Source: Treponema sp.
GTDB lineage: Bacteria > Spirochaetota > Spirochaetia > Treponematales > Breznakiellaceae
Direction of reading: 5' to 3'
DNA: 8,869 bases
Assembly (NCBI GenBank): GCA_031275035.1
Contig: JAISPH010000237.1
Location: 1 to 8,869 of the forward strand
Shown here: positions 2,480 to 6,732 of the stretch, piece by piece
Position numbering within the stretch: position 1 is the first letter of the stretch
Layout of the letters: each line of letters begins with the position of its first letter
The notes under the pieces: model-generated
The model's database searches: none
What the model saw: only the letters and a program-made list of their open reading frames with translations
Told to the model about the DNA's origin: nothing
Position numbers and translations under genes: made by a program

Positions 2480-2803
2480 ATGAGTAATGAAGTAGTTATA
2501 ACTGCCGCAAATTTTGAATCCGAGGTGCTTCAGTCTTCCGTGCCGGTACTGGTCGATTTTTGGGCGGCCTGGTGCGGCCCCTGTAAGATGATTGCCCCTC
2601 TTATCGGGGAACTGGCCGGGGAGTATGCCGGTAAAATCAAAGTCGGCAAGGTGAATGTGGACGAGGAAGGAGACCTGGCGAGCCGTCACGGCGTGGTATC
2701 CATCCCTACCCTGGTAGTTTATCAGGGCGGTAAAATAATCAACCAGAAAATCGGCGCCGCGCCGAAGCAGGCCATAGAGGGTCTCTTCAAGGATCTGGTC
2801 TAG
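2480..2803 (+). CDS. trxA: Thioredoxin
   Basis: The product is 107 aa, the usual length of bacterial thioredoxin 1. The redox motif WCGPCK is preceded by VLVDFWAA, and the cis-proline loop is VSIPTLVVY, followed by GGKII and the C-terminal helix ending FKDLV. All core features of an active cytoplasmic disulfide reductase are present. It would reduce targets such as peroxiredoxins, methionine sulfoxide reductases and ribonucleotide reductase, and be recycled by thioredoxin reductase, whose gene is not in this window. It appears monocistronic: its own promoter and leader lie upstream, and hairpin-rich repeat DNA begins at its stop codon. The TAG stop is itself part of the CTAG bounding repeat unit 1. 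Confidence 0.96.
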   Translation: MSNEVVITAANFESEVLQSSVPVLVDFWAAWCGPCKMIAPLIGELAGEYAGKIKVGKVNVDEEGDLASRHGVVSIPTLVVYQGGKIINQKIGAAPKQAIEGLFKDLV

Positions 2804-2945
2804 CAGCCTGTTGCACTTGTGGATTTTTTGCATATTCATGCAAAAAATCTCCGATTATCGGGTTCCTTACGCAGTTTGTAAGGTATAAATATTCATTTTA
2901 TGAATATTTATACTATTTTATGCACGAAGTGTAACAAACTGCTAG
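2800..2945. repeat. TIR-bounded hairpin unit 1 (MITE-like), flanked by CTAG
   Basis: The left end CTAGCAGCCTGTTGCACTT (from 2800) and the reverse complement of the right end, CTAGCAGTTTGTTACACTT (to 2945), agree at 16 of 19 positions. Three hairpins lie inside. The first is a perfect 12-bp stem with a 4-nt loop (2822-2833/2838-2849). The second is CCTTAC/GTAAGG (2865-2870/2878-2883). The third is a perfect 14-bp AT-rich stem with a 3-nt loop (2883-2896/2900-2913). There is no coding sequence. CTAG at both ends fits insertion at CTAG with TA duplication, as known for IS630/Tc1-type elements. That affiliation is inference, and a dispersed bidirectional terminator/REP-like repeat is the main alternative. 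Confidence 0.7.
2822..2849. terminator. Candidate trxA terminator hairpin inside repeat unit 1
   Basis: A 12-bp perfect stem with an ATTC loop starts 19 nt after the trxA stop. The stem itself carries T6 and A6 runs, with GCAT near the loop. It is AT-rich, so termination strength is doubtful. It is the first strong structure after trxA. Confidence 0.4.
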
Positions 2946-3110
2946 CAGCCTGTTGCACTTGTAGGTTTTTATGCCTTTTTCGTTGAAAAAAGGCATGAAA
3001 ACCACGATTTATGGGCTGCGCGAACCTTCGGTTCGAGGGCAGTTTGATCGGGTAAAAAATCGCCTAATCGGCGATTTTTTGGGATTTTACGCAGAAAGTG
3101 CAACAAACTG
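2942..3110. repeat. TIR-bounded hairpin unit 2 (MITE-like), in tandem with unit 1
   Basis: Its left end repeats that of unit 1 (CTAGCAGCCTGTTGCACTTGT from 2942, sharing the CTAG with the unit 1 right end), and AAAGTGCAACAAACTG (3095-3110) is its inverted right end. The interior differs from unit 1 but has the same plan. A long stem at 2964-2980/2987-3003 contains one G-T pair. CGAACC/GGTTCG lies at 3021-3026/3030-3035, and a perfect 11-bp stem at 3054-3064/3070-3080. GCAGTTTG occurs internally in both units (2871-2878 region and 3039-3045). The right boundary continues GGCC rather than TAG, so this side has lost the CTAG or never had it. Confidence 0.65.
3054..3080. terminator. Symmetric bidirectional terminator-like hairpin
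   Basis: AAAAAATCGCC (3054-3064) and GGCGATTTTTT (3070-3080) form a perfect 11-bp stem with a 5-nt loop. A6 precedes it and T6 ends it on either strand. It can therefore act on plus transcripts from trxA and on minus transcripts from the AT-rich module. Confidence 0.55.
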
Positions 3111-3387
3111 GCCTGCCGCATTGCGGCCTCGCGTATATCCCCGGCGGCTTGTGAGGAGGGGACAGATCCCGGTTGGTAAGATGTTTTGACCTTTTTGATG
3201 AACAGATTGAGCCGGTAGTGTCCTTTGAGTTTCAGCGAAAGCCTGGTTTAATACCTCGTCGCAATTTGCAAAATCTTTTCTGAGATCATTTTCTATACTT
3301 TTCAGAAAACGGTATGACCGCATCCTTCATTAAATCCGGGCCCGGAATAACCTGAACAAAGTCGGCAATGTAGTTTTTTCCTGACAT
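3111..3387 (-). pseudogene. Unrecognised broken gene read in three successive frames
   Basis: A start ATG at 3387 follows GGAG with about 8 nt spacing and lies 1 nt after the stop of the 115-aa gene. The first frame gives MSGKNYIADFVQVIPGPDLM... and stops after 33 codons at TGA 3286-3288. A second frame (from about 3323) continues coding-like text: FLKSIENDLRKDFANCDEVL, then NQAFAETQ. Near 3225 a third frame takes over with KGHYRLNLFIKKVKTSYQPG, then VPSSQAAGDIREAAMRQA, which has the GC-rich third positions of genuine genes here. That frame then runs into repeat unit 2. The simplest reading is one decayed gene with at least two frameshifts, its 3' end abutting or replaced by the repeat. I do not recognise the family. 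Two tiny overlapping genes is a less likely alternative. Confidence 0.4.
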
Positions 3388-3388
3388 T

Positions 3389-3736
3389 TTATTCTCCATG
3401 GCGTGTGCCGGCGCTTTCAGGCGCCGTTTTGTTTGCCTCTAAATGTGAGAACCGTTCCAGAAGGTTTTTTGCCATTTTCTTTACCTGGACCGCTTTCAAG
3501 CCAATTTTATTTGTATTTAATTTTTTGTCGTTCATTCCGGCAATTTTTCCAAGCCAAAATTTATGGTAGTTATCGGTAAGATTAAATACTTCTATCCGAT
3601 CTGGAAATGTCGCAACATTTTGCCAACATGTATGACTTTTATCGATATGCGTATAAAAGGCATACGAAACAAACCATGTTGCGCCCATAGTGCTCAATTC
3701 TGTTCCACCTTCAAAATTAAATGGATGACTTCCCAT
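3389..3736 (-). CDS. Hypothetical protein, 115 aa, family not recognised
   Basis: The start ATG at 3736 has a strong AGGAGG 8 nt upstream (3750-3745), which supports real translation. The product begins MGSHPFNFEGGTELSTMGAT, has an aromatic stretch WFVSYAFYTHIDKSHTCWQN, then a basic middle (MNDKKLNTNK...KAVQVKKMAKNLLERF) and a low-complexity end (EANKTAPESAGTRHGE). No signal peptide or membrane segment is seen. Base composition is AT-rich, unlike the U32, trxA and surface-protein genes, which suggests acquisition. It is third in a minus-strand series (leader ORF, frameshifted small gene, this gene, broken gene). The next start is 1 nt after its stop, so translational coupling is likely. The end of the gene overlaps a terminator-shaped hairpin on the other strand, so the natural C-terminus may be altered. 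Confidence 0.6.
   Translation of the reverse strand: MGSHPFNFEGGTELSTMGATWFVSYAFYTHIDKSHTCWQNVATFPDRIEVFNLTDNYHKFWLGKIAGMNDKKLNTNKIGLKAVQVKKMAKNLLERFSHLEANKTAPESAGTRHGE
3409..3430 (+). terminator. Terminator-shaped hairpin on the plus strand inside a minus-strand gene
   Basis: CGGCGC (3409-3414), a 6-nt loop and GCGCCG (3421-3426) are followed by TTTTGTTTG. This is the classic plus-strand intrinsic terminator layout, yet no plus-strand gene leads into it. It may stop antisense transcription reading past trxA, be a relic, or be chance. Confidence 0.35.
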
Positions 3737-3866
3737 TATTTGAACCTCCTGAATATTCGTTTCTCAAATGCAACGCCCCCACTGTGGTAACAACAATTTT
3801 CCTTCTATATGCCGTAAAAATCCGCTACCTTAGCAGTCAACAAGGACCAGAGGGACTTTTCTTAAA
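3737..3866. other. Intergenic gap in the AT-rich module, no gene seen
   Basis: These 130 nt lie between the frameshifted small gene and the 115-aa gene. Apart from the AGGAGG at 3745-3750, no convincing promoter, hairpin with a T tract or coding frame was found. An isolated TTGACT-like hexamer lacks a properly spaced -10. Confidence 0.5.
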
Positions 3867-4096
3867 CTATGTCCAAAATTCTTCAATTAAAATAGAAACT
3901 AATTTTCTTGCAAATGTTCCATCAAATTGAATTTTTTGACTTGGCTGTCCAACGTATTCTCTGTCTAGATTCCCATATGTATCAAGCTGAAAAAATTTGG
4001 TCCCTCTTTTTTCAAAAAAACAATATGTGGCCGATGCTTCACCTTGTTTGGTGTTTCTATCCATATCTTTTTTTCAATCGAAGTTATGCGAGCCAT
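3867..4096 (-). CDS. Small conserved-type protein requiring a -1 frameshift (76 aa if joined)
   Basis: ATG at 4096 follows GGGAGGA (4107-4101) at good spacing and starts MARITSIEKK. In that zero frame translation ends after 43 codons at TAG 3967-3965. A -1 shift at the A-AAA-AAG heptamer (4073-4067) joins it to the downstream frame: DMDRNTKQGEASATYCFFEK, then RGTKFFQLDTYGNLDREYVG, then QPSQKIQFDG...LVSILIEEFWT (stop 3869-3867). From memory, the joined 76-aa product fits a family of about 65-aa proteins. Those start MARI or MAxI and carry ATYxxFExxGxKYFQLDTYG, then GxxSQxIQFD and a C-terminal helix ending EF. They are often found in mobile or defence-rich loci and sometimes mislabelled as methionyl-tRNA formyltransferase. 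Function is unknown to me. The MARI start and the family core thus lie in different frames, so the gene is either frameshift-expressed, mutated in a homopolymer, or affected by a base-call error. An internal ATG at 4064 lacks a good SD. Confidence 0.65.
4067..4074 (-). other. A7G slippery homopolymer (contains A-AAA-AAG)
   Basis: On the minus strand the codons read GAA AAA AAG, which presents the dnaX-type slippery heptamer in the correct phase. Slipping back one base moves the ribosome into exactly the frame that holds the rest of the protein. No internal SD is seen 10-14 nt upstream. Only a weak 4-bp CACC/GGTG hairpin lies downstream, so programmed frameshifting is possible but not well supported. 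Confidence 0.55.
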
Positions 4097-4143
4097 TTTA
4101 TCCTCCCAAATTTCCATATAGTACCGGTGTTATGCTCTTTCAT
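4084..4143 (-). CDS. Short leader ORF (19 aa) overlapping the small gene start
   Basis: ATG at 4143 encodes MKEHNTGTIWKFGRIKWLA and stops at TAA 4086-4084. It overlaps the first codons of the frameshifted gene in another frame. Upstream are AAGGAGG (4160-4154, 10 nt from ATG) and a closer AAGG. The overlap would place terminating ribosomes next to the GGGAGGA and ATG of the next gene, as in translational coupling. It may be a leader peptide, or chance in a purine-rich stretch. Confidence 0.35.
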   Translation of the reverse strand: MKEHNTGTIWKFGRIKWLA

Positions 4144-4164
4144 TTTCCTTTTTCCTCCTTCCTA

Positions 4165-4191
4165 ATTATCCCAGCCCGCGCTGTTTGTAAA
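4165..4191 (-). promoter_or_regulatory. Weak possible promoter for the AT-rich module
   Basis: On the minus strand TTTACA (4191-4186) and GATAAT (4170-4165) are separated by 15 bp, shorter than the preferred 17. It lies just after the stop of the large lipoprotein gene. No intrinsic terminator separates that gene from the module, so read-through is an alternative source of transcript. Confidence 0.25.
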
Positions 4192-6732
4192 TCACTCCCA
4201 GTTTGCCGTGGTATCCCCCACGCCGCCCGCGGAACTCTCCTCGTATGTCCAGGCGCCGTCGCTATATTGGGCGTAGAGATTAACCGTTGTGCCCGCGGTG
4301 GAGTTACGTTTTTTACCAAGATGAAGATAAACCGCATGGCCGTTGCCGCTTGTCGCGGTATTTTCGGTACTGCCCTCGGTGTAGGTGGTATCCGTATCAC
4401 CGTAAATTGCCCCGCCTTTTTTGAGGAAGGTTCCATTCATGACATACACCCCGCCGCCGTAGCGGGCCGTATTGCCGCTTACCAAGGCGTTGTCCTGCAT
4501 CGTGAAGGTTCCACTTGAACCGAAATACACCCCACCGCCGCCGGAGGAGGAGAAGGAGACCGTATTGCCGCTTACCGAGGCGTTGTCCTCCATGGTGAAG
4601 CTTCCACCCTGGACATACACCCCGCCGCCGTAGTAGAGGGCCGTATTGTTACTTACCGAGGCGTTGTCCTGCATCGTGAAGGATCCACCTGAATAGACAT
4701 ACACCCCGCCGCCATTATCGGAGGTTCTATAATTCCTCGTTATAAGGCTGTCCCGGCGCATTTCCAGGGTCCCGTTTACGGCGACCAGCGAATCGGTATT
4801 GCCGGTCTCACTGGTATTTCCCTGCCCCCGTAGGGTAATATTCTCCACGGCCAGCGTAACGTTGCTACTGACCGTAAAAAGGCTCCCTGTACCGGAAAGC
4901 TGTACGATCCGTCCGCTGCCGTTACCTTTTATGGTAATACTCACATTGGTTTTACCGGAATAGCCAAGGGTCCGGGCCGGCATGGCTGTATTTTGGTACA
5001 CGATGATCGTATACGCGGTATTGTTTGCAACATTGGCATTCAGCCAGGTAAACGCGCCTTCAAGGCTGGTAATACTTGGTTCCGGATTTGCGGCGCTGCC
5101 GACGTACAACACAGCGGGCGGCGTTGTTACCGGATCGTAATACCAAACCGCAAAACTACCGCCCGCTCCGCCCGCGCCCTCCACCTTGAGGTACACGATC
5201 CCGTCAAGGCCGCTCAACGTCTCCGGCGCCGTCCATCCTTCAGTTTTATCCCCAAAGACAAGACCGCCGTCCCCGGTGTAGGCGCTTACCACGGCCGGAA
5301 GGGTTTTGCTCCCGTCCCCCTGGGGAGCGGCGCCGTTCCACTGAACCCGGTAGGCCGCGCCGGCAGCCGCGGTAAACGTGTACCATTGCGCTTCCCCGGC
5401 GTTCAGGGTTCCCTCCGCCCAAACTGTTTCGGTAAGGCTTACCGCCGGCGGCGGGGATGCCGAAACCATGGGGGACTTCTCCCCTTCGCCCAGGGCATTG
5501 TATGCGGAAACCCGGTAATGGTAGGTTACTCCTGATAACACCAGGGTATCCGTATAGAGGGCACCAGAAAGGTCTCCCCCGATCTGGTTATAACCGGCGG
5601 CGGGATCGGTGGTCCGGTAGAGCCGGTATCCGGCGGCCCCCGGTACGGTGTTCCAGGTGACTATGTTCCTGGGAACCGGCAAGGCGTTTACCGACAGGTT
5701 GATCCCTTCCTGGGGGGGCAGTTCCGCCGGGTTGTAGTAGCGCAGCGCGTAAGAGCCCGCATCGGCGCCGTCTGCCCCTTGCACCCGGAGGTATACCGCC
5801 CCCTGTACGCCGGATACCGCTTCCGGCGATACCCAGCCGGTGGTTTTGTTTTCAAAAATGAAGGTGTTGTCCCCGGTGTAGGCGCTTACCACGGCCGGAA
5901 GGGTCTTGGTTCCGTCCCCCTGGGGGGCCGCTCCGTTCCACTGAACCCGGTAGGCCGCGCCGGCAGCCGCGCTAAACGTGTACCAGCGGACTTCGCCGGG
6001 GCCGAGGGTCTGTTCCTCCCACCGGTTATATGTCAGATTGCCGACCAGACGGAAATCGTGCTCGAAAAAACAATACTCCACCGGGCTTTCCTGGTAGGGG
6101 TAGATGTGGAGGGCTTCGGTCCGGCCCGCCCGCCGGTCTCCCAGGCTCAGACCGATGTTCATAAGGTACTGGCCGGTGGGAAGATTCAGCACGCCGGAAG
6201 TAAGCGCGCCGGATTGCAGATTGATGGTTCCGCCGCTTATTGTTCCGCCCTCCGCCGTGGTAACAACGAGATTCCCCGTTGCCCCCGGGGGAAGGGTAAT
6301 GGCATAGCGGAAACTTCCGGCCTCGCCGGAAACCGGGGAGAGGGTGATGTTTGCCGGAGCGGTTTGCCCGATGTTTACGGTTACGGAGGCGCTGCCCCGG
6401 GCCAGGGGGAAAGCGGCCCCTTCCGTCCCGGTAAAGGCGGTGGCGGTAATTGTCCAGTTTCCGGCGGCAAGGGCTACGAGGTGAGGGCCGCCGGAGTTCA
6501 ACGCGAGCGGTTCACGGGCTTCCGGGCCGCTGAAGGTCAGTTCATACCTGCTTACACCGGGGAGGACAGGGTAGATGGTGCGGGCCGTACTGTCGAAGGG
6601 GGTTTCAATCCGCACTTCGGCATAGGCGCCTTCGGGGCCGGGTTCCGGCGGCGGCTCCAGGGGGTTTAGACAGCCGGTTAACACAAGCGCCGCGGCCAGC
6701 AGCGCTGACAATACTTTGATATGACTTTTCAT
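4192..6732 (-). CDS. Large surface lipoprotein with PPC-like, FnIII and beta-helix repeat regions
   Basis: The product is 846 aa from the ATG at 6732, which has GAGGAGG 6 nt upstream. A longer reading from 6795 would put the signal peptide inside the protein and overlap the previous gene. Residues 1-21 are a lipoprotein signal (MKSHIKVLSALLAAALVLTG, then Cys21 of the LTGC lipobox), followed by a Pro-rich spacer. Residues about 35-225 form an unassigned beta-rich domain. Two PPC-like domains (WYTFSAAAGAAYRVQWNG type, cores at about 249-288 and 449-488) flank one fibronectin III domain (about 344-428). From about residue 541 to the end is a beta-helix-like region. There, GGGVYV..GSFTM.DNASVSGNT is repeated four times, and the C-terminus reads GDTDTTYTEGSTENTATSGN and then GHAVYLHLGKKRNSTAG. 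It is probably anchored on a membrane and exposed for adhesion or polysaccharide contact, though no catalytic motif was seen. It is co-transcribed with the FnIII gene upstream. Confidence 0.85.
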   Translation of the reverse strand: MKSHIKVLSALLAAALVLTGCLNPLEPPPEPGPEGAYAEVRIETPFDSTARTIYPVLPGVSRYELTFSGPEAREPLALNSGGPHLVALAAGNWTITATAFTGTEGAAFPLARGSASVTVNIGQTAPANITLSPVSGEAGSFRYAITLPPGATGNLVVTTAEGGTISGGTINLQSGALTSGVLNLPTGQYLMNIGLSLGDRRAGRTEALHIYPYQESPVEYCFFEHDFRLVGNLTYNRWEEQTLGPGEVRWYTFSAAAGAAYRVQWNGAAPQGDGTKTLPAVVSAYTGDNTFIFENKTTGWVSPEAVSGVQGAVYLRVQGADGADAGSYALRYYNPAELPPQEGINLSVNALPVPRNIVTWNTVPGAAGYRLYRTTDPAAGYNQIGGDLSGALYTDTLVLSGVTYHYRVSAYNALGEGEKSPMVSASPPPAVSLTETVWAEGTLNAGEAQWYTFTAAAGAAYRVQWNGAAPQGDGSKTLPAVVSAYTGDGGLVFGDKTEGWTAPETLSGLDGIVYLKVEGAGGAGGSFAVWYYDPVTTPPAVLYVGSAANPEPSITSLEGAFTWLNANVANNTAYTIIVYQNTAMPARTLGYSGKTNVSITIKGNGSGRIVQLSGTGSLFTVSSNVTLAVENITLRGQGNTSETGNTDSLVAVNGTLEMRRDSLITRNYRTSDNGGGVYVYSGGSFTMQDNASVSNNTALYYGGGVYVQGGSFTMEDNASVSGNTVSFSSSGGGGVYFGSSGTFTMQDNALVSGNTARYGGGVYVMNGTFLKKGGAIYGDTDTTYTEGSTENTATSGNGHAVYLHLGKKRNSTAGTTVNLYAQYSDGAWTYEESSAGGVGDTTANWE
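4443..4715 (-). repeat. Four coding repeats of the beta-helix region
   Basis: Four units of 81-90 bp each encode GGGVYV, a short variable turn, (S/T)FTM(Q/E)DNA and (S/L)VS(G/N)NT. The anchor CATACACCCCGCCGCC or a variant on the plus strand begins at about 4443, 4524, 4614 and 4698. Each unit would be one or more rungs of a parallel beta-helix. Unit length varies only in the turn, and always in multiples of 3. Confidence 0.8.
5269..5385 (-). repeat. Direct repeat copy A (second PPC-like core)
   Basis: This 117-bp stretch matches 5869-5985 with about seven mismatches by eye and encodes the WYTFTAAAGAAYRVQWNGAA-type core. The copies are exactly 600 bp apart in the same frame. DNA identity is far higher here than in the flanks of the two domains. 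Confidence 0.85.
5869..5985 (-). repeat. Direct repeat copy B (first PPC-like core)
   Basis: This is the partner of 5269-5385. The sharp edges of the similarity suggest partial duplication or gene conversion between the two PPC-like domains, rather than slow divergence of whole domains. Confidence 0.85.

Follow-up and report, generated by a model that had tools for sequence, protein, structure and literature searches.

The frame break in a small conserved gene of a Treponema contig lies in an A7G run and most likely stems from an isolated indel or from a base error

How should a small gene be read whose start and whose conserved core lie in two different frames? Such a gene is found on the minus strand of contig JAISPH010000237.1 from Treponema sp.; the window analysed here is the whole stretch of 8869 bp, and all coordinates follow its numbering. 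The original prediction had offered four explanations, namely programmed frameshifting, reversible phase variation, a fixed null mutation or a base error. Of these, a fixed mutation or a base error has the most support, while programmed frameshifting and phase variation are not supported. The cause is most likely a one-off insertion or deletion (indel) in a homopolymer, or a base error there. The frame break itself is real. A Shine-Dalgarno (SD) sequence, GGAGG (4102-4106, minus strand), can be read directly ahead of ATG 4096, which opens the zero-frame segment MARITSIEKK (4067-4096, minus strand), identical to residues 1-10 of the sister protein P0003. Pairing of the 18 nt upstream with the textbook anti-SD sequence gives -10.2 kcal/mol for ATG 4096; ATG 4117 reaches -3.0 and the internal ATG 4064 has +0.3. 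By this measure ATG 4096 is the only strong start among the three. A good SD and the MARI N-terminus share one frame, as had been claimed. The zero-frame product comprises 43 amino acids and stops at 3965; its tail after the run (3965-4066, minus strand, stop included) is without family similarity. The conserved core, in turn, is encoded in the -1 frame by a 65-amino acid open reading frame (ORF; 3867-4064, minus strand), termed P0001. The nearest stop upstream of this ORF is a -1-frame TGA (4074-4076, minus strand) that overlaps the first A of an A7G run (4067-4074, minus strand), so that a frame change is possible only at or after the A-run. P0003 has MARITSIEKKDMDRNTKQGEASATYCFF within one frame, and this single-frame sequence indicates that zero-frame homology stops at the second lysine. 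Thus, the TGA on one side and the end of homology on the other place the switch inside the A7G run 4074-4067, where the join had been predicted; its zero-frame phase is A_AAA_AAG (heptamer 4073-4067). The coordinates and product lengths given earlier were also correct on direct reading.

The small gene is a member of a real family, the family of about 76 amino acids to which P0003 belongs: P0001 aligns to P0003 over 98% of the length of P0001, with 86% identity over the core. A profile search recovered 316 family proteins at E≤0.01; the best 120 are listed, the window's own included, and counts of relatives rest on the other 119. In 118 of these the N-terminal segment precedes the core (an anchor motif identified 108, and the ten that lack it were recognized by eye in the same output), and 118 are read in one frame. 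The window copy carries its MxRI segment as well, but in the zero frame and not in that of the core. The sole exception is P0006, 65 amino acids long and beginning at the methionine of the window ORF, which is known as a protein only. Homologues beginning at the internal ATG and lacking MARI had been named as evidence against the split; one such protein thus exists, while the other 118 carry the segment. The core motifs FFQxDTYG and SQxIQF and the helix that follows are present in P0001, which contains no stop and keeps 22 of the 24 columns with at least 90% conservation; by profile score against the close relatives it ranks 35th of 52. P0003 keeps 23 of these columns and ranks 26th. The state of the P0001 core would be compatible with a break that is recent, with a base error and with continued use alike, and does not choose among them.

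The relatives also tell whether the site of the break is shared. Junction residues were scored in 49 of the 51 closest relatives, P0006 (no N-terminus) and P0052 (different start) being dropped. Six of the 49 have Lys-Lys at residues 9-10 (followed by Asp in five of them), and 33 have isoleucine as residue 10. Since Lys-Lys is missing in 43, the heptamer is impossible at this place in these proteins. The family comparison had been proposed to see whether relatives have A8 or the same heptamer; by these residues the site is not conserved. In a short and weakly resolved tree (76 columns, 32 of 49 inner branches unresolved) the window groups first with P0003 (98/86); P0025, P0030 and P0036 join this pair next (86/90). 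All of these are intact, which places the break on the window's own branch within the sampled relatives. At the DNA level we compared 36 relative loci from outside the window's close clade (one record filed as plasmid, 33 reference genomes and two viral contigs). Four of these loci were inspected more closely. A single frame is found in 32 of the 36, L027 runs off the end of its contig, and three copies look damaged. Of these three, L033 (2780-3080) is truncated after DTYG, L017 (5900-6230) has no in-frame ATG, GTG or TTG ahead of the conserved part, and L034, from a metagenome-assembled genome of Ruminococcus flavefaciens (5850-6140), shows a -1 frame change at a different A-run. The last case carries the most weight, since a second break in the family, at another run, is to be expected if indels (or errors) strike homopolymers at random. 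Among 391 genomes sampled from the class of genome G002 the family was present in four, with matches free of inner stops.

A break at this position is expected from slipped-strand indels, because the run 4074-4068 is among the two longest A/T runs of the window. Only two A/T runs of at least seven bases occur in the whole 8869 bp, both within the small gene; at the second, a T7 (4014-4020, minus strand), the frame is unbroken. This T7 falls in the -1-frame codons TGT TTT TTT. The dnaX-like phase does not provide independent evidence, since any A-run that spans GAA AAA AAG necessarily takes the form A_AAA_AAG, and a phase that is a by-product of the codons calls for caution about recoding from a single copy. 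The frame break is in this sense ordinary, and it warns against inferring programmed recoding from one copy. PMC3711429 takes a similar line, in that a programmed frameshift requires a conserved site and at least five members, while singletons are assigned to indel mutation or sequencing error. The window copy resembles such singletons, being broken at a homopolymer, with intact relatives and no conserved shift site. A difference is that its break sits in a very shift-prone heptamer, so that the broken copy might still give a low-level full-length product. Rescue by transcriptional slippage is known for a run of 11 A (PMC4256274), and the window run is shorter. A generally error-ridden contig was considered and rejected, as the large ORFs (U32-peptidase, thioredoxin, fn3-repeat and an 867-amino acid ORF) are all open, which does not exclude a single homopolymer indel. 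Fixed mutation and base error are indistinguishable here. Several points weigh against a one-off indel or error. The well-kept -1-frame core also fits continued use, and A_AAA_AAG is, according to PMC5009743, among the sequences of E. coli that shift most readily, with only moderate selection against it. A 4-bp hairpin, CACC/GGTG, lies downstream of the run; seven 30-nt windows give it z-scores between -1.9 and -3.4 (mononucleotide shuffles, as for the 45- and 60-nt windows below). P0006, with 65 amino acids from the same methionine, may be a second case, and for the spirochaete-like relatives the comparison covers protein sequences only.

The hairpin, P0006, the well-kept core and the slippery heptamer in the right phase all speak for dnaX-type programmed -1 ribosomal frameshifting, by which the gene would yield the 43-amino acid and a 76-amino acid product in a set ratio. 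We nevertheless regard it as improbable. The sister P0003 is intact, the relatives are read in one frame, which led us to reject a conserved two-product recoding, and the heptamer is ruled out at this place in most close relatives as described above. The expected stimulators are also absent or weak. No SD-like stretch precedes the run, as its upstream 20 nt give -1.5 kcal/mol, where 68% of the region's 18-mers reach -1. The downstream fold gives z-scores of -1.1 to +0.2 in 45- and 60-nt windows and is unremarkable over 68 and 100 nt (-1.41 and -1.21). The earlier view that missing stimulators weaken the programmed option is in line with these values. Compared with dnaX-type frameshifting, the window has A_AAA_AAG in the same phase; it differs in having no upstream SD stimulator, in that its hairpin, with mixed z-scores, is not convincing, and in that the site is not conserved. 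A variant would be that this lineage recruited a new slippery site, with P0006 as a second instance. A small, perhaps nucleic-acid-binding partner of restriction systems of the MZA-like kind would then be made only by low-level frameshifting on A_AAA_AAG, keeping its dose low. We give this scenario very little weight.

Reversible phase variation would require length changes of the run that are frequent enough to turn expression of the gene on and off. The break does lie in a 7-base homopolymer, the minimum length counted for poly-AT stretches in PMC3711429. However, a tract of seven bases is short, the A-tract is not conserved in the family, and the product shows no surface features among those tested or seen, making such switching highly doubtful. 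That the protein starts at the internal ATG 4064 and has no need of the MARI segment, as the listed length of P0006 would allow, is unlikely given the missing SD, the conserved N-terminal segment and a short strand at residues 2-3 of the structure model, and we rejected it as the normal start.

In our view, the greater interest of the locus is the family, a small protein with almost no annotation that is found repeatedly next to MZA-like restriction genes. Of the 36 relative loci, 21 lie within 5 kb of bacterial anti-virus defence genes, and the family may be an overlooked component of MZA-like restriction systems. None of the six window ORFs scanned with Pfam is a defence gene of that kind, and none of eight family members was matched by a PADLOC model. 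The family model may resemble the PC4/Pur-alpha nucleic-acid-binding fold, with a sheet followed by a C-terminal helix, and PC4 and PUR chains were among the best structural matches. Searching the family profile against solved structures gave a best E of 0.071, and the best match in a viral structure library (E 0.03) was an uncharacterized phage protein. With P0003 as query, we obtained no match in PHROGs and none in phages, and two records in plasmids; viral scans with A1 and P0122 found none. A genome scan with P0001 returned 90 stretches fitting a pattern, with none confirmed. Among the listed relatives P0091 carries the name NMP kinase, and the name methionyl-tRNA formyltransferase, attached to P0100 and P0107, was rejected for want of Pfam support. 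The two viral contigs, L035 and L036, carry a distant family member that is 37% identical. In L044 (1009-1689) the family domain and a stretch matching the N-terminus of the AspBHI restriction endonuclease share one open frame.

The next gene downstream (3389-3736, minus strand) encodes a conserved hypothetical protein of 115 amino acids; at E≤0.001 the list of matches comprises 46 proteins, counting that of the window itself. Rfam and tRNA scans found nothing. The DNA of 2800-4200 and the 78-amino acid ORF at 3087-3323 gave no match in plasmids. Within 3087-3420 on the minus strand two frames overlap, one reading MSGKNYIADFVQVIPGPDLMKDAVIPFSEKYRK and the other FLKSIENDLRKDFANCDEVLNQAF; they may be a second split gene in this islet. 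After the thioredoxin gene, the stretch 2800-3110 contains two direct repeats, one of about 29 nt and one of about 27 nt, that also have inverted partners (CAGCCTGTTGCACTT / AAGTGCAACAAACTG) and look like small mobile or repeat elements.
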